Shown: one piece after another, positions 12,550 through 27,828 of the stretch
Layout of the letters: each line of letters begins with the position of its first letter
Numbering within the stretch: the stretch's first letter is position 1
NCBI RefSeq assembly: GCF_028369105.1
Contig: NZ_JAQNDO010000001.1
Coordinates: forward strand, 5,672,501-5,736,500
DNA length: 64,000 nucleotides
From: Polyangium mundeleinium
GTDB taxonomy: Bacteria; Myxococcota_A; Polyangia; Polyangiales; Polyangiaceae
Reading direction: 5' to 3'
The notes under the pieces: model-generated
Told to the model about the DNA's origin: nothing
What the model saw: the letters and a program-made list of their open reading frames with translations, nothing else
Database searches by the model: none
Program-made: the position numbers and the translations under genes

Positions 12550-12654
12550 CCTTTGCGTTGCCCGGAGGGCAACGCAACCAAAGGGTCAAGGGACAATGCC
12601 CCTGGTCGGGTCAAGGGCGGAAGCCCTTGTGGGGTGAAGGGGCAACGCCCCTTC
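12550..12654. terminator. Cluster of tandem GC-rich hairpins at the 3' end of the hybrid kinase gene
   Basis: Several short perfect hairpins follow one another: GCGTTGCCC/GGGCAACGC at about 12552-12572, CAAGGGC/GCCCTTG at 12612-12629 and GAAGGGGC/GCCCCTTC at 12636-12654. The last two lie inside the final codons of the kinase gene. A related cluster occurs near 49942-49990 behind another minus-strand gene, so this is probably a dispersed intergenic repeat that may stop transcription. There is no U-tract. Confidence 0.5.
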
Positions 12655-15600
12655 GCTCTCGGTCGAGAGCGGCAGCTCGACGCAGAAGGTCGAGCCCCGG
12701 CCGATCTCGCTCGACACGCGAATTCGGCCGCCGTGCGCCTCGACGATGGTGCGCGTGATGTAGAGGCCGAGCCCGAGCCCACCGTAATGCTGCGACGAGA
12801 CGCCGCGTCGAAATCGTTCGAAGAGCTGCGCCTGCACCTCGGCCGGGATCCCGATCCCGCGGTCCGTCACCGAGAGCCGTGCGACCCGATCTTCTCCGGT
12901 GATGGTGATGTCGATCGGCTGGCGTTCCCCGAACTTGATCGCGTTGGTGAGGAGGTTGGTCACGACCTGCTCCAGGCGGTGCGGGTCCCACCGGCCGATG
13001 ACCGGCTGCTCCGCGCGCACGGCGAGCGCGCTGCCTGACTGCGCGATCTGATCACCGAGGTGGGCGACGACCTCGTCGACGAGCGCGCGCAGATCGACGG
13101 GCGCCGTGTTCAGCTCGAGCCTCCCCGCCTGGATCCGGGAGACGTCGAGGAGCATATCGACGAGGTCGGCGAGGCGCTTGATCTGGCGGCCAGAGAGGGC
13201 GACCGCGGAGCGCACGCGCTCGACGTCCATGCCCCGCGCGAGCCTTTGCCCCAGCGATTGAATGGCGAGCTGCAGGCTGGTGAGCGGGGTGCGGAGCTCG
13301 TGCGAGGCAATCGAAAGGAACTCGTCCCGCAGCTGCACGGCCTCCTCCGCTGCCGTGCGCGCGCGCCGCTCGTCCAGGAGGAGCTGGTCGCGCTGCTGCT
13401 CGGCGCGCACGCGCGCGGTGATGTCGCGGAAGCTCCAGACCCGCCCGACCACGCGCCCGCCGAGGCGCTGGGGCTGCGAATAACGCTCGAAGAGGCGCCC
13501 GTCCGCGAACGGGATGACATCGACGCTGGACTCCTCGGGCGAGGCATAGAGAGCGCGGATCCTTTGCAGGAACGCCTCGGGATCGAGGAGCTGGTCGCAG
13601 ACGAACGTACGGAACGTGTCGTCCGACCCGGTGGAGAGGATCTCGTCCGGGATACGCCACATCGCCGCGAACCTGTGATTCTGACGCACGACGCGCTGCT
13701 CGTCGTCGACGACGAGGATGCCGTCCGCCGTCGATTCGAGCGTGGCCTCGAGGAGCGAGTAGGAATGGCGGAGCACCTCCTCGGCGCGCCGTCGCTCCGC
13801 GTTCTCCTGCTGCAAATCCGCATAGAGGCGCGCATTCTCGATGGAGTTGGCCGCCTGGGCCGAGAGATGCCGGATCACCTCGACGCGATCGGGGGTGAAA
13901 GCAGAGCGGGTGAGGTCGTTGTCGAGATAGATCACGCCGGCGAGGCGGCCCTTGTAGACGAGGGGCGCGGCGAGCGAGGAGCGCGGCGCACCGCCGGCGA
14001 AGCAGGGATCGCGCCCGAACGGCCCGTCGAGCGCGAGGTCGTCGAGCAGGACGGTCTCGCGCGTCCGCGCCACGTACGTCACGACGCTGATCGGCAGGTC
14101 CTCGCGGCCCTCGAGGGGCGCCGCGCCGAGCCTGTGGACGGCCGCCTCGCCGGTGCGGTGCTCGGCCTCGACGACGAGCCGTCCGTCACGCAGGAGCAGG
14201 AGGACGCCGCGCCGCGCGCCGGCGTTTTCGACCAGGATGCGCATGAGCGCGTCGAGCAGGCGGTCGAGGACGATCTCGCCCGAGATGGCCTGGGAAGCCT
14301 TGAGCACCGAGCCGAGGTCGAGCGCGGCGCCGGCGGGCGCGGCGGCCTCCGGGCCCGTCGCGCCGCGGAGGATCTCGCTGGGGACGAGGTCGGGGTACGA
14401 GCGCTCGAGACGCCGCATCGCCTCCGTCGCGCCCCATCGTCCGTACGCCCTGTGCGCCTCGGTCAGGTAGGTGCGGGCGATGGTGGTCTTGCCGAGCGCG
14501 CGGAAGGAAAGGCCCGCGAGCTCGTTGGCGAGCGCCTCGTCGTGGAGGTAGCCGCCGCGCTGGGCGAGGGCGATCGCCTCGTCGTAGCGAACCCACGCGG
14601 CGCGCGCATCGCCGCGGACGCGCTCGAGCTCGGCGCCGAGCAGGGCGCTTCGGTGCGCCAGGTTCTCCGGGCAGAGGTCCGCCCAGCGCGAGAGTTTTTT
14701 AGCGAAGATCTCCGCGCGGGCGAGGAAGAGCGCGCGCTCGTCCGGGGAGACCACGTCCGCCGCCTGCGTGAGCGCGACGCCAGCGTAGCAATGTAACGCG
14801 GGGGTGCCGTGCCAGGACACCACGGTCGGGATCTCGATGTTCAGCGAGAGCGCGGTGCGCGCCGCTTCCTCGAACGCGCCCTGGAAGACGCCGAGGAGCA
14901 CGACGTAGAACTGCGCGAGGTAGGCCGAGATCTGGTTGTCCATCCGGCGGCACTCCTCGATGACCTCGTCGATGTCGACCCATGCGCCCTTGAGCTTGGC
15001 CGGGCGCGCGGTCTCGACCGAGAGCTGGTGCGCGAGCTGTCCGACCGCGCCGACCATCCAGGTGATGGTTTTGAACTCGTCGAGCTTGCATATCGGCTGG
15101 TAACTCTGCGCCTCGGCGAGGAGGTCGGAGAGCGGCAGGCCGCGCAGGAGGCTGTTCGTGATGAGGTTGATCGTGTTGTAGAACGCCCAGATGTACTGGC
15201 CCGTCTCGAGCCCGGCGTGCATCCCCGCGAGCAGCGACTTCTGGCAGGCGGGGTAGCCCTCTCTCCAGTGCTGCACGTGGGCGCCCCACATTTGCCGGAG
15301 CATCGCCTCGGACTTCTTGTCCGGGTAGCGCTCCGAAAGGTCGATGGCAGCGCGGCCAAAGCGGTAGCCGAGCTCGACGTCGCCGCGGCCGCCGAGGAAC
15401 ACCCCGAAGTTGATACAGCCGTAGATCGCGTGCCGCGACAGGCCGTGGCGCACCGTGTTCTCGAGGATCTTCGCGACCGTGATGCAGTAGTGGTTGGGGC
15501 TCAAGAACCAGCAGGGAGAAAAGAGCTCCTGGAGCACGTCCTGCATGGCGCAGATCTCTGGGTCCGCGAGCGGCGGCAGGTCTGGCAGCGCCTCGAGCGT

Positions 15601-18198
15601 CTTTTCCCGGACCAGATCAATGGTCGCCCGGATCTGGGCGTCGAGCGTGGCTTGGTCGAGGAAGGGGGGCAGGTCGATCCCGAACGGGCGCAGGGCGGCG
15701 AACCCCTCCGCGAGCGCGGCGGGCAGGTCGTTCTTGAGCACCTGCACGTTCAGCTTGAGCCGCAGCACCTCGGTGCGATCGAGCCGGCTCGCGGCCCGCT
15801 CCAGGCAATCGGAGAGGATCGCGAGGGCGTCGTCATGCTGACCGCAGAGCGAGACCATGAGGGCGGTCTTCATCGCGTACTCGAGGCGGAGCCGGTACTG
15901 CGACGTCCAGGCGTCCTCCGGAAGGCGCAGGAGGCCGAGATTCAGGTAGCGCAGGGCCGCGCCGAAGGCGGCCGCGTCCTCGGCGCGGCAGGCGGCCTCG
16001 AGGCTCATGCGGGCGATGCGCAGGCGCTCCGCGGGGTCCGACACCAGGTCGCCCGCGCTGCTCAGGTGGCCGACGACGTCGAAGAGGTTCTGGCTCTCGG
16101 AGAGGTCTAGCTTGCCTGCGAGCAGCCGGCCGATCCGGAGGTGGAAGGCGGGCCGGTCCGCCTCCGGGATCATCGCGTAGGCGCCCTCCTGGACCTTGTC
16201 ATGAGCGAAGCGGTCGCCGTCGCGCCCGGCGATCACGAGCCTCTCGCTCACGGCGGGATCGAGGCGGCCATACGCTTCTTCCAGCGAGCACTCGCTCACC
16301 GTGGCGAGCACGTCGAGCTCGAACCGGTTGCCGATCGCCGCGGCGAGCTTCAGGGCCGCCTGGGTCGTCGCTGGTAGCCGCGCGATGGTGCGCACCATGA
16401 GGTCGACGACGTTGTCCGTGTACGCGAGCGCATCGATCTTGGCGAGGTCCCAGCGCCATCCCGACCCGGCTGCGAACGTGAGCACGCCGTGATCGTGCAG
16501 CGACCGGACGAACTCCTTGACGAAGAACGGGTTGCCGCCGGTCTTCTTCAGCACCGCATCGACGAGCGGTCCGCAGTCGTCGCGCTTGAGGCTGTCCGAG
16601 AGCATCTCGAGCAGGTGCGGGCGCGCGAGCGGGGCGAGGACGATGTCGCGCACGACGAGCCCGGCGTGCTCGAGCGCCTCGATGGCCAGGACGAACGGGT
16701 GCCCGGGCGAGACCTCGTTGTCGCGGTAAGCGCCGCAGAAGAAGAGCGCCTCGAGCGAGTCGTCGGCGAGGAGCGCCCGGAGCAGCCCGAGGCTCGCGGG
16801 GTCGATCCACTGCAGATCGTCGAGGAACAGGACGAGCGGGTGCGCGTGCCGCGCGAACACCGAGACGAAGAGCAAGAAGCACCGGTTCAGGCGGTTCTGC
16901 GCCTCGACGGGCCCGAGCTCGGGGACGGGCGGCTGCGCGCCGAGCACGTGGGATAACGAGGGGATGACGTCGCAGATCACCTGCCCGTTCGGGCCGAGCA
17001 CGTCGAGGAGCAACCTCCGCCACGCCTCGCTCCGCGCCTCGCTCTCGGTGAGGATCTGCCGCACGAGGCCGTCGAACGCCTGGATCACCGCGCTGTAGGG
17101 CGTGTCGCGGTTGTACTGGTCGTATTTGCCGCTCGTGAAATAGCCCTTCTGCCGTGCGAGCGGCTTCAGGATCTCGTGAACGAGCGAGGATTTGCCGATG
17201 CCCGAGTAGCCGGAGACGAGGACGATCTCGCGGCTCCCCGCGAGCGCGCGCTCGAACGCGGCGGTGAGCGCCTCGATGTCATGCTCGCGGCCGTAGAGCT
17301 TCTGGTGGATCCGGAAGAGGTCCTGACGATCGCGCTGGCCCACGACGAAGGGCTCGATCGTCCCCGTGCCGCGCAGGGCCTCACGGCAGCGCTCGAGGTC
17401 GGCGAGCAGGCCCTCGGCGCTCTGGTAGCGGTCCTCGGCGTTTTTCGCGAGCAGCTTGAGCACGACGTCGGAGACGGCCTCGGGGATCGTCGGATCGACG
17501 CGGGACGGCGGCGCGGGCGCGAGGGCGAGGTGTGCGTGGATGAGCTCCATCGGGTCCAGGACCTCGAAGGGGCGCTGACCCGTGAGCATCTGGTAAAGGA
17601 TGACGCCGAGCGCATAAAGGTCGGTCCGGTAGTCGACGCCGCGGTTCATGCGGCCGGTCTGCTCGGGGGAGACGTAGGGCAGCACGTCGGCGATCACCGC
17701 CGGCTCGTAGAGCCGCTCGTGCGCGCGGGTGATCTCGGCGTCGACGCCGAAGTTCTTGATCTTGACCGCGCCGTGCGCGCCGACGAGCACGTTTTGCGGG
17801 CGCAGGTCGCGGTGGACGAGCCCCGCCGCGTGCACCACGGCGAGACCTTCGGCGAGCGCGGCCGCGAGATCGAGCGCATCGACGACGGGCATTCTGCGTG
17901 ACGGACGCGCGGCGAGGATCCGCGCGAGATCGCGGCCCGGGAAGTCCTCGAGGACGACGATCAAGGAGCCCGCGAGCTCCTCGACGCCGCGCAGCGCGAC
18001 GAGGCGGGGCGAGGCGAGGCGCGCGATGCGCTCGTACTGGTGCTTGAAGCGCGCGACCTCGGCGCGCGTCGATCCTTCCGCGCGGAGGATTTTCAGCAAG
18101 ACCGGGACGCCGTCGCCCTCGCGGTACGCGCGGTACAGGCTAAAATCGGCGCTTTCCTCGATCTTCTCCCGGAGCGCGTAGCCTCTCCCGACGACCAT
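12586..18198 (-). CDS. Giant hybrid: STK-like domain, AAA ATPase, TPR-like region, GAF, PAS and histidine kinase
   Basis: A 1870-residue multidomain signalling protein. Residues about 8-275 are a protein-kinase-like domain with K36 in VLLKIL and HRDLRPQN (129-136), but the Mg-binding DFG is NFG at 149-151 and no Gly-rich loop is evident. An AAA predicted-ATPase module follows, with Walker A GYSGIGKS (about 330-337) and Walker B LVLFLDDLQW. A long helical TPR-like stretch runs to about 1340, then GAF (about 1360-1500) and PAS (about 1515-1625). The HisKA motif ASHELRTPLTS has its phospho-accepting His near 1633. The HATPase domain shows NLLTNAIKFG, DRGIGIP and GLGLGLYI. No transmembrane segment was seen. 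This layout is known from cyanobacterial and myxobacterial sensor proteins. No receiver domain is present, so the output partner lies elsewhere. Confidence 0.93.
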   Translation of the reverse strand: MVVGRGYALREKIEESADFSLYRAYREGDGVPVLLKILRAEGSTRAEVARFKHQYERIARLASPRLVALRGVEELAGSLIVVLEDFPGRDLARILAARPSRRMPVVDALDLAAALAEGLAVVHAAGLVHRDLRPQNVLVGAHGAVKIKNFGVDAEITRAHERLYEPAVIADVLPYVSPEQTGRMNRGVDYRTDLYALGVILYQMLTGQRPFEVLDPMELIHAHLALAPAPPSRVDPTIPEAVSDVVLKLLAKNAEDRYQSAEGLLADLERCREALRGTGTIEPFVVGQRDRQDLFRIHQKLYGREHDIEALTAAFERALAGSREIVLVSGYSGIGKSSLVHEILKPLARQKGYFTSGKYDQYNRDTPYSAVIQAFDGLVRQILTESEARSEAWRRLLLDVLGPNGQVICDVIPSLSHVLGAQPPVPELGPVEAQNRLNRCFLLFVSVFARHAHPLVLFLDDLQWIDPASLGLLRALLADDSLEALFFCGAYRDNEVSPGHPFVLAIEALEHAGLVVRDIVLAPLARPHLLEMLSDSLKRDDCGPLVDAVLKKTGGNPFFVKEFVRSLHDHGVLTFAAGSGWRWDLAKIDALAYTDNVVDLMVRTIARLPATTQAALKLAAAIGNRFELDVLATVSECSLEEAYGRLDPAVSERLVIAGRDGDRFAHDKVQEGAYAMIPEADRPAFHLRIGRLLAGKLDLSESQNLFDVVGHLSSAGDLVSDPAERLRIARMSLEAACRAEDAAAFGAALRYLNLGLLRLPEDAWTSQYRLRLEYAMKTALMVSLCGQHDDALAILSDCLERAASRLDRTEVLRLKLNVQVLKNDLPAALAEGFAALRPFGIDLPPFLDQATLDAQIRATIDLVREKTLEALPDLPPLADPEICAMQDVLQELFSPCWFLSPNHYCITVAKILENTVRHGLSRHAIYGCINFGVFLGGRGDVELGYRFGRAAIDLSERYPDKKSEAMLRQMWGAHVQHWREGYPACQKSLLAGMHAGLETGQYIWAFYNTINLITNSLLRGLPLSDLLAEAQSYQPICKLDEFKTITWMVGAVGQLAHQLSVETARPAKLKGAWVDIDEVIEECRRMDNQISAYLAQFYVVLLGVFQGAFEEAARTALSLNIEIPTVVSWHGTPALHCYAGVALTQAADVVSPDERALFLARAEIFAKKLSRWADLCPENLAHRSALLGAELERVRGDARAAWVRYDEAIALAQRGGYLHDEALANELAGLSFRALGKTTIARTYLTEAHRAYGRWGATEAMRRLERSYPDLVPSEILRGATGPEAAAPAGAALDLGSVLKASQAISGEIVLDRLLDALMRILVENAGARRGVLLLLRDGRLVVEAEHRTGEAAVHRLGAAPLEGREDLPISVVTYVARTRETVLLDDLALDGPFGRDPCFAGGAPRSSLAAPLVYKGRLAGVIYLDNDLTRSAFTPDRVEVIRHLSAQAANSIENARLYADLQQENAERRRAEEVLRHSYSLLEATLESTADGILVVDDEQRVVRQNHRFAAMWRIPDEILSTGSDDTFRTFVCDQLLDPEAFLQRIRALYASPEESSVDVIPFADGRLFERYSQPQRLGGRVVGRVWSFRDITARVRAEQQRDQLLLDERRARTAAEEAVQLRDEFLSIASHELRTPLTSLQLAIQSLGQRLARGMDVERVRSAVALSGRQIKRLADLVDMLLDVSRIQAGRLELNTAPVDLRALVDEVVAHLGDQIAQSGSALAVRAEQPVIGRWDPHRLEQVVTNLLTNAIKFGERQPIDITITGEDRVARLSVTDRGIGIPAEVQAQLFERFRRGVSSQHYGGLGLGLYITRTIVEAHGGRIRVSSEIGRGSTFCVELPLSTESEGALPLHPTRASALDPTRGIVP
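12849..12937. repeat. 89-bp perfect inverted repeat, copy inside the HATPase coding region
   Basis: This block of the kinase gene, encoding the KFGERQPIDITITGED to DRGIG part of the ATPase domain, recurs without mismatch at 18268-18356. That copy reads on the plus strand and lies just upstream of the kinase start codon. The two copies flank about 5.3 kb that contains nearly the whole gene. Confidence 0.9.
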
Positions 18199-18475: not shown

Positions 18476-19603
18476 TCAGCGCAAGAGCGCATCCTGCAGG
18501 TACGTGACCCAGCTCCCGGTCTTCACGTCCATCGCCTTCATGGTGCCGCCGTCGTCCCAGTACGCCCAGGCAATGCCGCGCAGCTCGGCCTCGCGCCGGA
18601 TCAGGCGCACATACGTCGCGCGCGATTGCTGATCCGCATTGTCGATGCAGCCGAACTCGCCCATGTACACCCGGCGCCCGCTGGCCTGGATGTAGCGGTC
18701 CACCTTCTCGAACTCGGCCCGCACACCCGCCGGCCCGTTTGGGTTCTGTGACAAGGGCTGCGTATTGTAGCGGCTGAACCAATCGTTCACCCAGCCCACC
18801 CGCTGCGCCGCCAAGGCGGGCGTGAGCGGCGCGGCCGGTGGGCCGGGGAAGACGATCCCGGTCGTGCCGTATTCCGGGGCCATCCACGGCGCGCCCTGGT
18901 GCGTGAAGAGAATGGGCTGGTACATGTGGAACGTGGGGATCAGGTTGGGGTCGTCCTTGGGCAGCGTGAGCTCGTCCAGCCAATCGGCCGAGGCCCAGAA
19001 GTACCCGTCGACGATGATCCGCCGCGTGGGGTTTTTCGCGCGGATGATGGCGATCGCCTTGTTCGAGATCTCGTTGACGATGTCGGCGTTCAAGTTTCCG
19101 TTGGGCTCGTTGAGCAGCTCGAAAACCACGCTGGGGGGGCGACGCGCGTAGCGCTCGGCGAGCTGCGTCCAGATCCCCAGGAACCGCGGTGTGTGCGCGG
19201 CCGGTTCCTTCATCAGCTCCTCGTAGTGGTGGAAATCGAGGATCACCGACAGGCCCCGCGCCGCCGCCCGATCGAGCGCCCAGTCGACGCGCTCCAGGAA
19301 CGCCGCGTCCACGGTGAACGGCGCGCTCGCCTGGGCGTGCGCGTTGAAGCGCACCGGCAGCCGGACGTGATCCAGGCCCGCGGCGGCCGCCATCTCGAAA
19401 TGGCGCTCGTCGAGCGTCACCCCCCACGCGCCCTCGTTCGGCGCGTCGAGGGCGTTGCCCAGGTTGATGCCGCGCCGGAAGCCCTCGAACGGCGCGGACT
19501 GCGCGACGCCGGCGGGGTTCGGCGTGATGTCCCGGGCCGAGCCCCGCGGGATGCAGCCGGAAACCAGGGGAATCCACAACAGCGTCTGCCACAGCGCGCG
19601 CAT
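18476..19603 (-). CDS. Glycoside hydrolase family 5 (cellulase-type) lipoprotein
   Basis: A 375-residue secreted lipoprotein (signal peptide ending PLVSGC). The catalytic (beta/alpha)8 domain begins soon after with FRRGINLGNALDAP. Diagnostic residues are the Arg in VRLPVRF, HHYEEL, the acid/base Glu in LLNEPNG, the His/Tyr pair in FHMYQP, and the nucleophile Glu in GEFGC, with a Trp in AYWDDGG. GH5 enzymes cut beta-1,4 glucans or mannans with retention of configuration. GGAGGCGATTCG precedes the ATG. It lies 127 bp downstream, on the same strand, of the GH45-like gene, so the two may act together on plant cell wall polysaccharide. Confidence 0.92.
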   Translation of the reverse strand: MRALWQTLLWIPLVSGCIPRGSARDITPNPAGVAQSAPFEGFRRGINLGNALDAPNEGAWGVTLDERHFEMAAAAGLDHVRLPVRFNAHAQASAPFTVDAAFLERVDWALDRAAARGLSVILDFHHYEELMKEPAAHTPRFLGIWTQLAERYARRPPSVVFELLNEPNGNLNADIVNEISNKAIAIIRAKNPTRRIIVDGYFWASADWLDELTLPKDDPNLIPTFHMYQPILFTHQGAPWMAPEYGTTGIVFPGPPAAPLTPALAAQRVGWVNDWFSRYNTQPLSQNPNGPAGVRAEFEKVDRYIQASGRRVYMGEFGCIDNADQQSRATYVRLIRREAELRGIAWAYWDDGGTMKAMDVKTGSWVTYLQDALLR

Positions 19604-19730
19604 CGAATCGCCTCCGACCGTCACGCTGCCCTGATCGGCGGCGGGCTGCAAGACACACCACGCGGAAACACCCTGAACCCGTGGTGCAGAGCCTCGCCCA
19701 GGGACGCGCTCGGGCTCCGTTGTCCTCCGT

Positions 19731-20957
19731 TTATTGTTTCACGACCGGTTTGCCGTCGCTCCGGCACGAATAGAACGAGTCATACCCGTCCACGGTCGGG
19801 CTCTTGACGTTGTTCTTCCAGGCGCAGGTGGGCATGCAGCAATCCTGCATGGTCGTCGTGTGATAGGGCTCGTTGTTGAGCGTGCTGACGAAGCCGGCCG
19901 CCTTGGCCTGCGCGGCCGTCTGGATGTTCGGATCGGGCGCCGGGAGGCCCTGTGAAGCCAGCTTGCATCCCGTGACCTCCATGAGATGCGTTGGACAAGC
20001 CACGCGCTTGGCGAGGACCTTCCAGTTCTCATGGTAGTACGAAGTGGCCTGGTTCGACTGGATACAAGACTTGCGTGTCTCGTCCTGGAGCGTGGCGTCT
20101 GCGGCCGTGATGGTGTTGCACGCGCTCGTGACTTTTTGCTGGCAGGTATCGGACGCGATCAATGCGTCGCTCAAATTCCCGCCGTCATCACATTTCAGGC
20201 TGTCGGGCCCGGGTTTCACGCCACCGTTGAAGGCTTGCCCCTCCGCAGGATAGGTCTGGTACTGCGAATACCCGAACTTCGTCCCGTAGTTCAGGTCGGC
20301 GTCGCATGCGTTGAAGGCGCCGAGGCCTCCCGCTCCCATGTAAATGTCGAATCCCGTCGCCCCCGATGCCTGGGTGTTGAAGCTCTGCACGATCAGCGGC
20401 TTCGGTGGTGTCAACGTCGAGTTCGTCAGGTACCTGGGTGCGTCGAAGACGAGCTGGTAGCACTGGCAGCACGAATCGGGGAGGCCCACGTCGAGGTTCG
20501 TCCCGTCGGGATCGTGGCCCGCGACGGCATAGTTGAATGTATCCTCGAAGCCATCATCGATCGCGGCCTGCTCCATCTCGTCCGCAAACAGCATGTAACG
20601 AGGGCAGGCGTACTGAACGGGGACCCCCTCCTTGCCACCCTCGCAGGCGTTTTTCGACGTGGGACCATAATCGTTTGCACAAGCGCCGCCGCACGTGCTG
20701 CTTGGGTCCCCCTTTTTGCATCCATCGACGGAGAACTGGTTCGAGCATTCGCTGGGCGGCGGAAGCGCATACCCCCCAGGCATGTCCGGACCCGTCCCGC
20801 TCGACGAGCTCGATGCCCCGCCGTTTCCCGTGGGAGACGTCGTCGAGCTCGAACCATCCATCCCTCCAGCTCCCCCGGTGTTCGTAGCGCCAGAAGATTC
20901 GTCGCAGGCGGCATGCGCGAGGCAAAAGACGATTGGAAAGAAGCGCGTCAACTTCAT
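19731..20957 (-). CDS. Secreted GH45-like glycoside hydrolase with circularly permuted motif order
   Basis: A 408-residue predicted lipoprotein (Cys18 after FCLAHAA) with a Ser/Gly spacer to about residue 65 and many Cys. Residues 101-171 align with GH45 endoglucanases (ACEGG...VQYAC, then SCCQCYQLVF). LIVQSFNT and TGFDIYMGAGGLGAFNAC follow at 188-218, where Asp204 matches the GH45 general acid. VACPTHLMEVTGC (319-331) matches the usual GH45 C-terminal region. The motif that opens normal GH45 enzymes, T-x-x-DCC-x-P-x-C-x-W, is instead at the C-terminus: TTMQDCCMPTCAW (368-380), with Asp372 as the putative base. An expansin-like role without hydrolysis is an alternative. The stabilising Asp of the GGD loop seems absent. 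Confidence 0.8.
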   Translation of the reverse strand: MKLTRFFPIVFCLAHAACDESSGATNTGGAGGMDGSSSTTSPTGNGGASSSSSGTGPDMPGGYALPPPSECSNQFSVDGCKKGDPSSTCGGACANDYGPTSKNACEGGKEGVPVQYACPRYMLFADEMEQAAIDDGFEDTFNYAVAGHDPDGTNLDVGLPDSCCQCYQLVFDAPRYLTNSTLTPPKPLIVQSFNTQASGATGFDIYMGAGGLGAFNACDADLNYGTKFGYSQYQTYPAEGQAFNGGVKPGPDSLKCDDGGNLSDALIASDTCQQKVTSACNTITAADATLQDETRKSCIQSNQATSYYHENWKVLAKRVACPTHLMEVTGCKLASQGLPAPDPNIQTAAQAKAAGFVSTLNNEPYHTTTMQDCCMPTCAWKNNVKSPTVDGYDSFYSCRSDGKPVVKQ

Positions 20958-22430: not shown

Positions 22431-23393
22431 TTATGCGGGCGATGGGCAGACGGAGCCTCCGGCGGGGGCTCGGAGCTCCGGATGCGCAGCCGCCCTCGCT
22501 GCCAGGCGACGCTGCCGCCGCGCCTCACGAGCTGCCTCGAGCTTCGTGTCACGTGCGGCCCAGATGATATCGGCTCGGCCCGCGAGCGCGTCGTTCGGTG
22601 TGATGTACCCGATGGCGCTGTGCAAGCGCACGCCGTTGTAATGGTCGACGAAGCGCCCGACGATGCGGCGGGCATCCGCGAGCGATGACGGCGGCGTCAC
22701 CCGAATCGCGTCGCTCTTCAGCGTCCTGTGCCAGCGCTCGATCTTGCCATTCGACTGGGGGTAGTTGACCGAGATGCGCACGTGCGTCATGCCCGCGATT
22801 CGGATGAACTCCTTGAAGTCCTTCGCGATGAACTGCGGGCCGTTGTCCGAGATGATGCGTGGCCTTTCGTCAGGGTACTTCTCGCGCGCACGCTGTGCGA
22901 TGCACTCGACATCCAACTCGGTCATCGCTTCGCGAATCTCCCAATGGACGATCGCGCGGCTGGCGCCGTCGAGCAGCGAGCACAGGTAATAGAACGTGCC
23001 AGCTACGTTCAGGTAGGCGATATCGATGTGCCAGTGCTCGTGCGGCCTGAGCGGCTGCACGAAGCCGGTGCCCTTCTTCGACGCGCCCCGCTTCCAGCGG
23101 TCGAGGCGGCCTGCCGCCGACAGCACCCGATAGGTGGTCGAAGGACTGACGGCGACGACGTCCTGGTCCAGCATCATGAACGTCAATCGGCGATAGCCCT
23201 CGAGCGGGTTCTTTGCGTGGAAGTCGAGCACCTTCTGCCGCTCCTCGGGCCCGATCCAGAAGTCGCGTGGCACATCTGCATTGTGCTCGTTCGCCTTACC
23301 GTAGCGCTTCTTCCAGTCGAAGAACTTGCTGCGCGCGACGCCGAGCCAGCGAATGAAGCTCTCCCCGATGATATTCGTCTTGTCGGCCCACAC
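22431..23393 (-). CDS. IS3-family transposase, OrfB (DDE catalytic subunit)
   Basis: About 320 residues with the rve integrase core: HIDIAYL (first Asp), ISDNGPQF (second Asp) and NGKIERWHRTLK (Glu), plus the upstream HTH_21-like segment EGYRRLTFMML. This is the catalytic part of an IS3-type transposase. The frame stays open upstream to overlap the end of OrfA (LTGRWVPHDTRDEVVDFVR precedes the GTG at 23393), so the protein is probably made as an OrfAB fusion by -1 frameshifting. The C-terminal extension is Arg/Ala-rich. The gene appears intact. Terminal inverted repeats could not be identified, so the element ends are unknown. Confidence 0.92.
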   Translation of the reverse strand: MWADKTNIIGESFIRWLGVARSKFFDWKKRYGKANEHNADVPRDFWIGPEERQKVLDFHAKNPLEGYRRLTFMMLDQDVVAVSPSTTYRVLSAAGRLDRWKRGASKKGTGFVQPLRPHEHWHIDIAYLNVAGTFYYLCSLLDGASRAIVHWEIREAMTELDVECIAQRAREKYPDERPRIISDNGPQFIAKDFKEFIRIAGMTHVRISVNYPQSNGKIERWHRTLKSDAIRVTPPSSLADARRIVGRFVDHYNGVRLHSAIGYITPNDALAGRADIIWAARDTKLEAAREARRQRRLAARAAAHPELRAPAGGSVCPSPA

Positions 23394-23446
23394 GCGGACG
23401 AAGTCGACGACCTCGTCACGCGTGTCGTGGGGAACCCACCGGCCGG

Positions 23447-23770
23447 TCAGGGCTCCCCAAGTTCTTTTTTCAGCTTGACGTATTCCTCGGAGATCTCCGC
23501 GATCACCGCGTCCTTCTTCGAGAGCTTGGCCTCCAGCTGCGCGACGCGCGCTTCGAGCTCACGCTCGCGTGCCGAGGGCTTGTCCTTCGGCGGCCCATCG
23601 AACACGACGGCCGCGTTCTCGAACAGCTGCCGCTGCCAGGTGTAGAAGAGGCTCGGCTGCAGCTTCGTCTCGTCGCAAAGGCTCGAAACGGGCACCTTCT
23701 CCACGTGGTGGCGCTTCAGCAGCGCGGCCTTCTGCTCGCTCGTGTGGTTTCTTCGGATTCGCTTCGGCAT
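23447..23770 (-). CDS. IS3-family transposase, OrfA (HTH/leucine zipper)
   Basis: A 107-residue protein with an N-terminal helix-turn-helix (EQKAALLKRHHVEKVPVSSL, then SLFYTWQRQLF) that would bind the element ends. A C-terminal coiled coil (ARERELEARVAQLEAKLSKK) is typical for OrfA multimerisation. Its last codons contain AAAAAAG (complement of 23464-23470), and OrfB lies in the -1 frame, the classic arrangement for IS3 programmed frameshifting. The gene is intact. Confidence 0.92.
   Translation of the reverse strand: MPKRIRRNHTSEQKAALLKRHHVEKVPVSSLCDETKLQPSLFYTWQRQLFENAAVVFDGPPKDKPSARERELEARVAQLEAKLSKKDAVIAEISEEYVKLKKELGEP
23464..23470 (-). promoter_or_regulatory. Candidate -1 ribosomal frameshift site (AAAAAAG)
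   Basis: An A6G heptamer lies nine codons from the start of the coding overlap, near the end of OrfA, and shifting back one base enters the OrfB frame. The phase is AAA AAA G rather than the textbook A AAA AAG, so efficiency is uncertain. Confidence 0.5.
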
Positions 23771-24029: not shown

Positions 24030-25559
24030 TTATGCTGTTCGCTGTTGCAGGAAGCTGCGTACTGCATCTTCGAGAGCCGCACGCCGTAGCGTTAAGAATT
24101 CGTCCCATCTATTAACGCTCAGCGCATACCGTGCTTTTGCCGATATACAATGACTTTCTAGTATGTCGGGTGCTGTTCGGCAGATTGCCTGACGGAGCTG
24201 GGGGAGTTTGTTGTGGAGAATTCGGTTCTCGGTGGCGCCTGCGCTGTCGGCCCTGTCCCGCACAATGCGGACTAGCGCCTCATCGCCATGCTCATCGAGA
24301 AGCGACTTGACATCTAGCTCCTCGCCCGTTTGAAGGTGTCGGGGCCGGCGAGAGGCCAAGACCGCACAGACAAGCTTTGTTCCGGCCTCGCGAAAGTCGT
24401 GTCGCTGAGGTAGGTCGAATGGCCTTTCCGGAAGGGGTGTGCTCTGGATTAACTGCTGAATTGTCGCTGATTCATCGTCGGTGACGCTTTTGAGTGCTGC
24501 CCGGATCGTTGGAGCGTCAGCGCGTGCGTGCGAAGCTGACCACGCTCCTCGCCAGAACCAGGCTGCGAGCTGCCGTCGCGTCGCAGGAGATGGCCTCCGG
24601 ACAAGGTGAAAGAGCTTCGTAAGCGGGACGAGAGGGAAACGATACGGTAGGAGCTTCACATGTACGATGCCTACCTCCTCTTGAAGAAATGCAATCACGT
24701 TTTCAATCGCACGCTCGGTAGCATCAAGCGCGGTACGGACCTCCTCTTGAGGCTTTTCACGCAGGGCTTCCCCGAAGTTGCGCGTCACGTCTATCCCTAG
24801 CACTGCAGCGGCGGCTTTTAGCAACCACTCCTCCTCCGGCGCGCCGAAGCCGAGAGCATTAAGACGTGCTCCCAATGCAGCGAGATCCGTACCAGGTCGG
24901 CCCCGGTGAATCGCTGCGAATACCTCCTTAGCTTCAAGCCGCTTACCCGTAGTGTTGAGTCGCTCGAAGATCTCGCGGATTTGTCCTTCGTCTTGTGCAT
25001 GGACAATATAGACAGGTATCCGATAGTCCCTTAGTGCGCGTACGAGTTGATTGGCAACGTTTACGAGCGGTGGGGGTAGTCGCCGAGCTTGTAGCCACTG
25101 CAAAAAACGCATTGTGTCGGCTACTTCGGGCAATGGGAGCCACGATTCAGCAACGCGCTCGCGTGGTTGAGCGTATTCGAACTTGCCTTCTGCAAGATCA
25201 AAAAATAGGCTGAACTTGCCGGAAGCCTGTGTGCCTCTCGCGAGCAGGACGGCTACCAGTGACGTGACACGTTGTTGCCCGTCGATAATGAGATGGTTGC
25301 GGCCACGCGACGGTTCAAAGCGCAGCGGGCCAAAATCAGTCCGGACCCCTTCCGTATGCTCCGTCTCCCATAGAAGGAGATCGCCAATGGGATAGCCTCG
25401 GTAAATGCTGTCGAAAAGCTTCCGCACATCTTCCGCTTCCCAGACGAAGTTGCGCTGGAACACTGGGATATAGAGTTGGCCTTCTTTGGCCTTGCGCAAG
25501 ATGTCGTCGACACTCCACGTCGTCGCCTCTGGACGAACGAACGGTTCAGGCTGGTTCAT
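24030..25559 (-). CDS. DUF262 domain protein, third gene of a candidate defence operon
   Basis: A 509-residue protein of the DUF262/GmrS-N type. Seen: IPVFQRNFVW (31-40), YRGYPIGDLLLW, the hallmark IIDGQQRVTSL (91-101) and IFERLNTTGKRL (197-208), which form the ParB/sulfiredoxin-like nucleotide-binding fold. The C-terminal region resembles that following DUF262 in GmrSD-like proteins (ENRILHNKL; SVNRWDEFLTLRR), but the HNH-type HHIFP motif expected there is missing (only DEHGDEA is found), so nuclease activity is doubtful. It overlaps the upstream gene by 4 bp. DUF262 proteins act in type IV restriction and phosphorothioate-sensing systems. GC content is lower than in surrounding genes. Confidence 0.85.
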   Translation of the reverse strand: MNQPEPFVRPEATTWSVDDILRKAKEGQLYIPVFQRNFVWEAEDVRKLFDSIYRGYPIGDLLLWETEHTEGVRTDFGPLRFEPSRGRNHLIIDGQQRVTSLVAVLLARGTQASGKFSLFFDLAEGKFEYAQPRERVAESWLPLPEVADTMRFLQWLQARRLPPPLVNVANQLVRALRDYRIPVYIVHAQDEGQIREIFERLNTTGKRLEAKEVFAAIHRGRPGTDLAALGARLNALGFGAPEEEWLLKAAAAVLGIDVTRNFGEALREKPQEEVRTALDATERAIENVIAFLQEEVGIVHVKLLPYRFPLVPLTKLFHLVRRPSPATRRQLAAWFWRGAWSASHARADAPTIRAALKSVTDDESATIQQLIQSTPLPERPFDLPQRHDFREAGTKLVCAVLASRRPRHLQTGEELDVKSLLDEHGDEALVRIVRDRADSAGATENRILHNKLPQLRQAICRTAPDILESHCISAKARYALSVNRWDEFLTLRRAALEDAVRSFLQQRTA

Positions 25560-26656
25560 AGCCAGTCCTCCAATAGCTCGGCGATCGCAAGGAGTTCGGC
25601 CCTTGCATCATCGTCCAGCCATGAAGTATCGAAGTTTTCGTCATGTAGGTGTTGAATTGCCTTTTCCGCAGCATTTTCACCGAAACGCAGCTTCAGATCG
25701 TCGACGTGCTTGAGTTTTTGCTTGTCGTCGAGCGCACGCCACGCTTCAAACTGTTCATGTAGAATAGGGCGGGAGAGCGTCGTGTTGGCTTTGCTCTTGA
25801 TTTCTTTGGCAACATTGTCGAGCGCTTCCTTGTTGGCATCCTTGATTCTGTTGCCATGATGCTCGAGTTGCTTCAGAATCCAGCTGTAAATTAGGACTGC
25901 GCGCTGACGGGCCCTGCGCCTCTTGGTTGTGTCCCTGATGGTCTGCGACTTTGAACCTTTCCACTCTGCGAGCATTGACCAAATGCTTGAAGGTACATAA
26001 TTTTCGAGTTCTCGGCGTGCTAATATGTGGATCGGTATTTTCTTTGCGTCGCAGCTTTCTTTGATTTTGCGTGCCGTCTTGCTTGGTCCATCTTCAGGCT
26101 CATCGCGATCGCTATCGATTATTACGAATGAGCGCTCCGAACCAGACACTCTGTCGACGGCATTTTTGACCTCGCCCGAACCTCCACACCCCCGAGGTTG
26201 AATCCATTTTTGTTCGAGCGCGCTTTGGAGCTTGGGAGATTTACTCACTCGGATCGCTAGCCGGACCAAAATACTGTCCTTGTCGTTTTCGAGCAAGACA
26301 TCCAGAGATTGTTCCGCCCATATACCCACCTCCTCGGGGGCGAGGACGAAGGCGATCTCGGGTTTATCCAGTAGCGGCTCCCCTGATACGACCGCACACA
26401 TTCCTGGCTTGTTGGCAGGTGCGAATGGATCTGCGGGACTTCGTTGCAGGAATTCTTCCCACCTCTGGCGCAGTCGTTCACGAAGCATAGGGGCACATGC
26501 CTGAACCATGAAGTCGCTGTCCAGAATTGCCTCGGGATCATCAATGTCGATCTCGTGTTGAGTGCGATAGGCACGGTCGAACAGGCGCCGCAGTTGTTCA
26601 TAGATGCGCTCGTCGCGGCAGTTGAAGAGCGTTGTGTCGCGGATGCGAACTTTCAC
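25556..26656 (-). CDS. TOPRIM/DUF4435-like protein, second gene of a candidate defence operon
   Basis: A 366-residue protein. The central part has features of the TOPRIM-like nuclease fold in OLD and PARIS-type systems: an acidic patch PEEVGIWAEQSLDVLLEND (108-124), SFVIIDSDRDEP (176-187) with the Asp-x-Asp pair, and ARRELENYVP (213-222), typical of DUF4435. The N-terminal 100 residues and the helical C-terminus are not recognised. A GTG start at 26656 overlaps the stop of the ATPase gene by four bases (GTGA), and its own stop overlaps the DUF262 start by four. A longer start at 26740 would overlap the ATPase gene by 88 bp and is rejected. It is probably the effector or nuclease partner of the ATPase. 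Confidence 0.75.
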   Translation of the reverse strand: MKVRIRDTTLFNCRDERIYEQLRRLFDRAYRTQHEIDIDDPEAILDSDFMVQACAPMLRERLRQRWEEFLQRSPADPFAPANKPGMCAVVSGEPLLDKPEIAFVLAPEEVGIWAEQSLDVLLENDKDSILVRLAIRVSKSPKLQSALEQKWIQPRGCGGSGEVKNAVDRVSGSERSFVIIDSDRDEPEDGPSKTARKIKESCDAKKIPIHILARRELENYVPSSIWSMLAEWKGSKSQTIRDTTKRRRARQRAVLIYSWILKQLEHHGNRIKDANKEALDNVAKEIKSKANTTLSRPILHEQFEAWRALDDKQKLKHVDDLKLRFGENAAEKAIQHLHDENFDTSWLDDDARAELLAIAELLEDWL

Positions 26657-27828
26657 GGCAAGAGGCCTCGGCGTACGAGTTCTCGACGAAGAGCTGCAAA
26701 TTCGCGCTGAGGTTCGGCAAATACGTCCTTGGGCCACCAATCTGGAGTCGCACGCTCATCGAATGCGATTTCTTTGACTTGGCCACCAACAGCGGTGTCG
26801 TCTTCGACAAAGTACATTTTTACGTCTCGTGGCGACAGGCGTCCGGCTGCAATCTCGCGACGGATCCGGAGGACCAATACATCGGAGTGCGTTTCCACGA
26901 GTAGCCGTGTAGACGGCCGCTGCTTTACGCACTCGATGAGCAACTCGGCAACAGCGACATGCGCCCGCGGGTGCAGGTGCAACTCAGGTTGTTCGAGACA
27001 AAAAAGCGATGGCTGTGCGCGAGCAAGCCGGATTGCCACTACCAAGGGCAGGATCTGAGCGATGCCAGCGCCACTGTCCAGCATGCTCACTGGCTCCCTG
27101 GAGGTTCCTTCGGCTAGGACCTCAAAGGTATCCTTGCGCGTCTCGAAGGCGTCCTTGAGTTCGCGAACATGTAGACGTACGCGAAGCGGGGCGAAGAAGT
27201 CGTTGATTTCATCGATCCCTTTATCTCCAGACGCAGCCAGGATCATGGGAGCGCGTTCGCCGAACTGGCCCACATCGTCTGGCGTGTAGCCGAGATAGTC
27301 GTGGTAGCGTTCTCCTAGCGGGCGCATCCCGCGCAGAACATGGATACTCGGAGGAATCGATGCGAGTTCGGGGACCTCGGCCAACGCAGAGCGTGCCGCA
27401 CTCCATGTAATGTTCGTAAACTCCCGCGCTCGTCCCGTCCCATCGTCGATCGACAAATGTGTCACGACCTGTTTGTGCCCGTGCTCGGGTAACGATGTAA
27501 CACCCATCGCTAAGCGGTTTGCTCCTGCAACACCGGCGAGCCCAAGCTTCCACTGTAGGCCTGTCGCCTGGCGGCGAAAACATACTGATGGGAGTGCGCC
27601 AAAGTCGATCCCACCGACCTTCGTGGGTAATGGGGATGGCGCATCCTTGCCAAGCGGATGGGTCAGGTACGAAGGGGCAAAGCAAAGCGCGGTTTTGCCT
27701 GCGTTGTTACGCCCGAGTAGGAGGGTGAGCTTCCCCAACTCCACGCGTGCCTCTTGGCCGAATGCCTTATAGCCCTCGACTGAGAACCACGTGAGATCGG
27801 GACGCGGAATGAGCAACTCTGCGGACAT
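26653..27828 (-). CDS. SMC/OLD-like AAA ATPase, first gene of a candidate defence operon
   Basis: A 391-residue ATPase of the AAA_15/AAA_21 (RecF/OLD-like) class. Walker A is GRNNAGKT (39-46). An ABC-type signature region follows (MLDSGAGIAQILPLV), then Walker B LFCLEQPELHLHP and the switch His in VETHSD. The end, WWPKDVFAEPQREFAAL, resembles the DUF3696 C-terminus. There is no long coiled coil. Such ATPases act as sensors in defence systems such as PARIS, Septu and OLD/Gabija-like systems. ATG at 27828 was chosen; a TTG at 27849 is also possible. Base composition is lower in GC than the flanks, suggesting transfer. Confidence 0.88.
   Translation of the reverse strand: MSAELLIPRPDLTWFSVEGYKAFGQEARVELGKLTLLLGRNNAGKTALCFAPSYLTHPLGKDAPSPLPTKVGGIDFGALPSVCFRRQATGLQWKLGLAGVAGANRLAMGVTSLPEHGHKQVVTHLSIDDGTGRAREFTNITWSAARSALAEVPELASIPPSIHVLRGMRPLGERYHDYLGYTPDDVGQFGERAPMILAASGDKGIDEINDFFAPLRVRLHVRELKDAFETRKDTFEVLAEGTSREPVSMLDSGAGIAQILPLVVAIRLARAQPSLFCLEQPELHLHPRAHVAVAELLIECVKQRPSTRLLVETHSDVLVLRIRREIAAGRLSPRDVKMYFVEDDTAVGGQVKEIAFDERATPDWWPKDVFAEPQREFAALRRELVRRGLLP

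Follow-up and report, generated by a model that had tools for sequence, protein, structure and literature searches.

Is the open reading frame at 19731-20957 of the window (the whole 64,000-nt stretch of Polyangium mundeleinium DNA analysed here) a member of the GH45 superfamily whose barrel has been circularly permuted? The gene lies in a genome of 13.25 Mb, has GGAG directly 5' of its start codon and ends 10 residues past an FYSC motif. The preliminary description had placed the motif that normally opens GH45 enzymes at the C-terminus of this protein, with the rest in standard order ahead of it, and the translation bears this out. The opening block (TTMQDCCMPTCAW...FYSC) stands at the end of the chain, with DCC at residues 372-374 and FYSC at 395-398, and the remaining landmarks keep their standard relative order (NACEGG 103-108, YAC 116-118, SCCQCYQLVF 162-171, GFDIYMGAGGLG 202-213 and CPTHLMEVTGC 321-331). 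All of the landmarks that it had named, as well as the numbering of Asp204 and Asp372, hold in the 408-aa translation, and the arrangement recurs in 20/20 members of the family described below. The parts of the gene are as follows.

19731-20957, minus strand: whole ORF of the permuted GH45-like protein, 408 aa (ATG at 20957, no internal stop)
20904-20957, minus strand: signal peptide, residues 1-18, ending in AHAAC (from sequence)
20772-20903, minus strand: Gly/Ser/Thr-rich linker, residues 19-62 (from sequence)
19965-20660, minus strand: GH45 barrel body, residues 100-331, strands beta2 to beta6 (from alignment, hhalign and predicted models)
20346-20348, minus strand: Asp204, corresponding to the general acid of GH45 enzymes, HiEGV Asp121 (Asp in 20/20 permuted and 33/33 canonical sequences)
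19872-19964, minus strand: new linker, residues 332-362, between the former C-terminal end and the former N-terminal strand (from alignment)
19734-19871, minus strand: displaced N-terminal block, residues 363-408, with beta1 (363-370), DCCxPxCxW and FYSC (from hhalign, model and alignment)
19842-19844, minus strand: Asp372, corresponding to the general base of GH45 enzymes, HiEGV Asp10 (Asp in 20/20 permuted and 33/33 canonical sequences)

Judging from its residues, the signal peptide is probably a lipoprotein signal (the relative L046 has LALAGC), and the protein would be exported and probably lipid-anchored via the flexible Gly/Ser/Thr linker.

We aligned the permuted and canonical proteins jointly with two fungal GH45 sequences after rotation. 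All 14 cysteine columns of the two fungal sequences were occupied by cysteine in 20/20 permuted members. The catalytic residues Asp12 and Asp122 (5gly numbering; HiEGV Asp10 and Asp121) matched Asp372 and Asp204, invariant in the 20 permuted members and present as Asp in the 33 canonical ones, so that the counterparts proposed earlier for both catalytic aspartates hold across the family. In HiEGV, Asp121 is the general acid and Asp10 the general base, and the two lie 11.3 A apart, as given in a passage of PMC5829257. The acid lies in the FD motif on beta5 in 20/20 permuted proteins (Asp204), and the base lies beside CC on beta1, likewise in 20/20, at the C-terminus instead of the N-terminus (Asp372). 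Cysteines 88 and 200, which form a disulfide in fungal GH45 enzymes, were both present in all 20 permuted members and both missing in all 33 canonical myxobacterial GH45s. Being kept or lost as a pair is as expected if the bond persists in the permuted members, and the pattern speaks against the permuted clade having recently descended from the canonical one. The permuted family has two further invariant cysteines, 256 and 272.

Profile comparison allowed the rotation to be examined directly. Nineteen permuted proteins were aligned (A1, of which the hhalign filter kept 17 rows) and compared with an alignment of nine canonical proteins (A2). In native order, hhalign aligned 146 columns with canonical columns 85-238 (score 76.7), and the second-best match placed the C-terminal block on canonical columns 9-40 (score 39.7, P 1.1e-4). 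When residues 355-408 were placed before residues 60-345, the rotation suggested in the preliminary description, a single end-to-end alignment was obtained (222 columns, canonical 9-238, score 94.4), and the rotated profile minus residues 60-99 scored 107.0. In 200 controls with the columns of the moved block shuffled, the mean score was 76.5 and the maximum 76.7, with 0/200 shuffles reaching 94.4. Taken alone, the C-terminal 69 residues (340-408) matched canonical columns 9-40 with a score of 41.1 (P 2.2e-6), as compared with a mean of 12.4 and a maximum of 23.4 in 200 column shuffles of this block. A scan of cut positions in steps of 6 columns yielded scores of ~95 for cuts at residues 219-369; end-to-end coverage (canonical 8-9 to 233-238) was confined to cuts at about residues 331-363, while cuts at residues 219-325 also scored ~95 but covered canonical columns 9-153 at most.

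HMMER showed no such gain when the rotated profiles were compared with the nine canonical proteins (mean best-domain score 29.8 in native order and 30.0 at most after rotation), and cuts inside the body lowered the mean best-domain score. We propose that this reflects the ~70 extra residues between the blocks, because inserts would cost what the moved block gains.

These data bear on a different reading, in which the Cys motif at the C-terminus is a small domain of other origin, its likeness to the GH45 N-terminus being due to chance or convergence, and the body is a GH45 from which beta1 has been lost. The moved block is indeed short (32 aligned columns), and the preliminary description had named a Cys motif of a different domain as an outcome that would count against permutation. 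Instead, hhalign places the block on canonical GH45 columns 9-40, which the body does not match, none of the 200 shuffles reached the observed score, and the four cysteines of the block complete the set of 14.

At E values up to 10, the A1 profile matched ten of 177,635 PDB sequences. Each is a GH45-type endoglucanase, the set is identical to that obtained with the canonical profile, and 5glx is the best (E 2.5e-8). The permuted block order was seen in all three printed alignments; in that with 5glx, query residues 309-328 align to chain residues 10-29, 88-161 to 80-142, and 257-278 to 188-209. The window protein itself had no match up to E 10 in Pfam and NCBIfam, and phmmer with this protein alone returned chance-level PDB matches only ('gelation factor', E 0.09 to 0.19). 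PF02015 was detected at E 10 or better in 5/20 permuted members (best 1.2e-9), and L046, at 35 bits, exceeded its cut-off of 27 bits over profile positions 46-170 of 214, with the opening 45 positions absent. Pfam misses the window protein, which would therefore be absent from a PF02015-based tally of myxobacterial cellulases.

The AlphaFold model of window protein residues 60-408 (pLDDT 84.1, pTM 0.88; pLDDT 77-97 by block over the C-terminal 69 residues, model 281-349) contains predicted barrel strands at 142-148, 166-174, 188-194, 202-206, 312-319 and 363-370, the sixth of which is the strand running into DCC at the C-terminus. One short predicted helix lies in the linker that spans the old termini. 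In VIA-align 2, ten GH45 chains came on top (Z 10.9-11.9, 165-178 residues, rmsd 2.9-3.2), and the next row was a GH45 too (Z 3.6). Seven of these matches began at GH45 residue 25 or 27 and the others at 48, 48 and 40 (own numbering); they ended at or near the end of the GH45 chain, spanning model residues 7-10 to 277-285 of 349. With a start at 25 or 27, the opening two dozen GH45 residues, DCC included, are left without a sequential partner, and the C-terminal block of the model is left over. The matched span includes chain residues 25-33, before Cys33, which fits imperfectly with the sequence reading that FxSC has moved as well. Foldseek found no match to this model at E 0.001 or better.

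The model of the diverged relative L046 (pLDDT 78.5, pTM 0.85; pLDDT 64-70 past the C-terminal strand) gave the same picture, with VIA Z of 10.3-11.4 to GH45 chains and only 2.0-2.4 to expansins. Here Foldseek did match eight GH45 chains (E 1.3e-5 to 8.7e-5), with target TM-scores of only 0.45-0.54 and rmsd of 5.0-8.4. A model unlike the GH45/expansin barrel, a second outcome named beforehand as speaking against permutation, was thus seen for neither protein, the best VIA matches of both being GH45 chains (Z 11.9 and 11.4). The six strands of a double-psi barrel are seen in the predicted models only, those of the window protein and L046.

For the C-terminal block as a domain of its own, the models cut both ways. 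The window model has a second short strand in the block (388-393), with which a local hairpin would be possible, and the sequential VIA match takes in chain residues 25-33 without the block. In L046, the block holds a single strand of at least 3 residues (model 263-271) with no partner of that length inside it, so that the partner of this predicted strand should lie in the body, and pTM values of 0.85-0.88 suggest that the placement of the block relative to the body is confidently predicted. On the shuffles, the cysteine set, the L046 strand and pTM, we rejected the separate domain, which we regard as very improbable. Circular permutation of a GH45-type barrel, as claimed in the preliminary description, is supported by profile rotation with its controls, by the correspondence of cysteines and aspartates, by two diverged predicted models and by recurrence in a monophyletic family, and we hold it with high confidence.

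This recurrence emerged from sequence searches. A pattern scan of genome contigs (84,980 species) with the window protein, which detects close relatives only, yielded 13 loci in records titled Polyangium, Polyangiaceae, Myxococcales or Deltaproteobacteria; the best named match was from Polyangium fumosum (91% identity). In a profile search, the gene or a piece of it was present in 12 of the 183 genomes of the window's order, being full-length or nearly so in ten (G000, G057, G071, G091, G092, G132, G138, G144, G148 and G160), reduced to fragments in G136 and to a 3' remnant in G149. A second search gave the same twelve genomes. L046 (G483) is a permuted member from outside this order but within the same class (377 genomes searched). 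Some genomes carry more than one permuted copy. The block order was permuted in 20/20 distinct full-length members (window included) and normal in 33/33 canonical myxobacterial GH45s: DCCxPxC lies ~190-240 residues after CC(Q/E)CY in the former and ~60-80 residues before C-G-x-C-Y/F in the latter. Among the ORFs listed (20 distinct permuted and 33 distinct canonical rows), none had both orders or an intermediate one. A natural circular permutation is common to a whole bacterial lineage.

Those weak matches of the profile search that were fetched turned out to be canonical GH45 genes, and a canonical GH45 co-occurs with the permuted gene in 8 of the 12 genomes (G057, G071, G091, G092, G132, G136, G138 and G160). 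PF02015 was found in 22/183 genomes of the order, in G144 solely through its permuted copy. In the window's own genome, neither PF02015 nor the canonical profile A2 found a match; control genomes were likewise without a PF02015 match, and empty results of this kind do not amount to absence. No relatives of the permuted protein were found on plasmids or viral contigs. Duplicate fetches were left out of the counts (L015=L001, L016=L002, L017=L004, L018=L005 and later re-fetches; L014 is the window), and fragments or broken copies were kept outside A1 and A3 (L005/L018/L076, L010, L013/L025/L047, L024/L064, L033/L077 and L035). Four loci that matched at the N-terminus only (L026, L027, L028 and L029; within residues 3-134, largely linker), also missing from the profile-search results, were not counted as members.

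Some copies are broken. At L013 (4167-5186; also L025 and L047, all from one Polyangium genome) the permuted gene is reduced to its final ~55 residues, the remainder of the open frame being unrelated to it; this remnant is a decaying copy of the permuted gene. At L010 the family is split over two reading frames. Copies such as these are what might be cited for an artefact, be it a chimeric assembly, a fused gene or a pseudogene confined to one genome. Such an origin is contradicted by the 20 distinct full-length copies (window included), which come from many genomes and have the same order in a single open frame, and by dN/dS of 0.13 for the window gene and its P. fumosum counterpart (dN 0.031, dS 0.246, NG86; 0.07 by YN00). 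We put the likelihood of an artefact close to nil; assembly artefact and simple pseudogene were rejected through the recurrence of the permuted order across genomes. The C-terminal 54 codons behave similarly in the comparison with P. fumosum (dN 0.024, dS 0.252). The permuted gene is under purifying selection in the pairs tested.

In a tree with the canonical sequences (canonical-profile score of at least 200 bits and the DCC motif, identical ORFs taken once; 33 distinct), the 20 permuted sequences formed one clade with a support of 100/100 and a stem of 1.93 changes per column. The root, set on two fungal sequences, is arbitrary, and the direction of the permutation is therefore deduced from the wide occurrence of the normal GH45 block order, not from the tree.

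The preliminary description had also pointed to an adjacent GH5 cellulase:

18476-19651, minus strand: GH5 cellulase ORF, 79 nt downstream of the permuted gene as listed (PF00150, E 9.5e-44)

This neighbour is real, and its sequence suggests that translation likely starts at an internal ATG (residue 17), but the association is not conserved. A GH5 homologue was found at 1/13 related loci (some with little flanking sequence), and the sole case is L013, where an intact GH5 gene, 96% identical to that of the window, stands beside the 3' remnant. In P. fumosum, no homologue of the window's GH5 was found within 11.2 kb around the permuted gene. GH5 was accordingly rejected as a conserved operon partner. 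Eight chosen ORFs around L001, L003, L005, L008, L010 and L011 included six with mutually unrelated Pfam families (carbohydrate phosphorylase, FKBP, FGE-sulfatase, GGDEF/FHA, STAS and aldo/keto reductase) and two without any. Because the surroundings are not conserved, the neighbourhood says little about function.

Elsewhere in the window, all on the minus strand, we observed, ~1.5 kb 5' of the permuted gene, an insertion-sequence transposase pair at 22431-23770 (HTH_Tnp_1 and an rve integrase core), and a 1870-residue chain at 12586-18198 that combines Ser/Thr kinase, AAA_16, GAF, PAS and histidine kinase modules. Two adjoining genes at 24030-26740 are a candidate anti-phage system by sequence: one encodes a GmrSD_N (PF03235) protein that matches PADLOC PDC-M55C (E 1.8e-73), and its neighbour matches PDC-M55B (E 3.6e-20).

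How might the permuted enzyme work? The canonical chain runs from beta1 (with the base in DCC) through beta2, beta3 and beta4 to beta5 (with the acid in FD) and beta6, and the permuted chain as beta2-beta3-beta4-beta5-beta6-linker-beta1. The old termini would be bridged by about 30-40 residues, and the new ones, to judge from the alignment, would have opened in the loop that separates FxSC from the cysteine after it (fungal C33 and C49, 5gly numbering). The fold is most likely the same double-psi barrel, with beta1 supplied, and presumably packed, from the C-terminus, and with the same seven disulfides, whose pairing we infer. By the GH45 pattern the pairs would be 373-218, 374-105, 378-163, 398-118, 164-331, 166-321 and 280-298. 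With the two aspartates in the presumed catalytic geometry, the protein would hydrolyse beta-1,4-glucan or a related polysaccharide by inversion, Asp204 protonating the leaving group and Asp372 activating water. As a whole, this account of a naturally permuted GH45-superfamily member with the proposed barrel and mechanism appears likely to us. Of its parts, catalytic activity as a hydrolase is somewhat probable, and beta-glucan as the substrate is evenly balanced.

The reservations about activity stem from the cleft. TRYWD is replaced by TTMQD in the window protein and by T(T/S)M(Q/E)D across the family (full motif T(T/S)M(Q/E)DCC), and PGGGVG of GH45 by GAGGLG. The position of 5gly Asp115 holds Asp in 1/20 permuted members, and Asp179 of NADNP, present in 33/33 canonical proteins, is found in 0/20, the NADNP loop being missing. 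These changes make a loss or change of activity possible, and the substrate may not be plain cellulose. Two motifs, GHD (residues 147-149; 20511-20519) and Y-H-x-N-W (residues 308-312; 20022-20036), are invariant in the 19 A1 rows (bar x in the second) and absent from the canonical rows printed; they are possibly family-specific cleft residues.

A permuted barrel that is no longer hydrolytic and serves in cell-wall loosening or binding, like an expansin or loosenin, would agree with the altered motif TTMQD and with the loss of Asp at 5gly positions 115 and 179, and expansins do have the same barrel (Z 2.0-2.4 with the L046 model). Expansins consist of the barrel domain followed by a second domain of CBM63 type, and the ORF here, which stops 10 residues past FYSC and has no Pfam domain match, would seem to leave little space for such a domain at its C-terminus. 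In VIA, moreover, GH45 subfamily A matches lie far above the expansin ones. Both catalytic aspartates are invariant in 20/20 members, including the base, which is absent from expansins and PcCel45A according to a passage of PMC5829257. We consider the non-hydrolytic alternative unlikely, and favour the permuted hydrolase.

To our knowledge, few natural circular permutations have been described in carbohydrate-active enzymes. The preliminary description knew of no permuted GH45, and we found none described among the matches listed from the full text of 5.39 million open-licence PMC papers. PMC12093494 and PMC5010890, both on myxobacteria, each mention GH45 a single time, within a family list. 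We give equal weight to either side of the following proposition: the GH45/expansin barrel superfamily has here its first natural case of circular permutation, an active enzyme lineage whose cleft has been remodelled and whose substrate may be new, which predates the canonical GH45s of these bacteria or stands apart from them and merits a GH45 subfamily of its own. The older or separate origin is suggested because the permuted clade keeps two cysteines absent from all 33 canonical sequences compared. A disulfide-rich barrel, of a kind found in cellulases, expansins and plant defence proteins, has here been rewired with its catalytic acids and the cysteines of seven presumed disulfides kept. 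The order of folding, the formation of the disulfides and how permutations arise can therefore be put to direct test, the controls being the canonical GH45s that some of these genomes also carry.

Among known systems, GH45 subfamily C and expansins have the normal block order. They share the double-psi barrel and the FD acid but are without the Asp10 base, according to part of PMC5829257 (PcCel45A for subfamily C), and reach VIA Z of only about 2-3 with the permuted models. The label 'expansin relative', which the preliminary description had offered as an alternative, is thus less apt, since subfamily A matches at Z 10-12 as compared with 2.0-2.4 for expansins and since its base, absent from expansins in that passage of PMC5829257, is present here. 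GH75 chitosanases (V-Csn) have a DPBB core reported in a passage of PMC9485262 to be similar to GH45; they were not among the structure-search matches listed, which excludes nothing, and 'permut' occurs 0 times in the main text of that paper.

Canonical myxobacterial GH45s (for example L034, L036, L037 and L038) come from the same order of bacteria and have similar Gly/Ser/Thr linkers and both catalytic aspartates, but differ in their normal block order, their separate clade and a PF02015 match in 9/9 tested. Four others (L039-L042) carry a Cys-rich C-terminal tail of ~45 residues, roughly CDCxWxxGGxxCGxDDGSxCWxxCC. The leading structural matches (Z 10-12) are GH45 enzymes of subfamily A type. 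The nearest known systems are the endoglucanases of this subfamily, from Humicola insolens (EGV, 2ENG), Thielavia terrestris (5GLY) and Neurospora crassa (6MVI), with which the permuted protein shares the barrel strands, the 14 cysteines, the general acid and base and the predicted body fold, and ~28% identity to two fungal GH45 sequences after rotation. The linear order beta1-beta6 with an N-terminal T-R-Y-W-D-C-C, by which subfamily A is recognized, was seen in none of the 20 permuted members. Unlike in subfamily A, beta1 and DCC (and by sequence also FSC) follow beta6, extra inserts and cysteines 256 and 272 have been added, and the cleft residues are altered.
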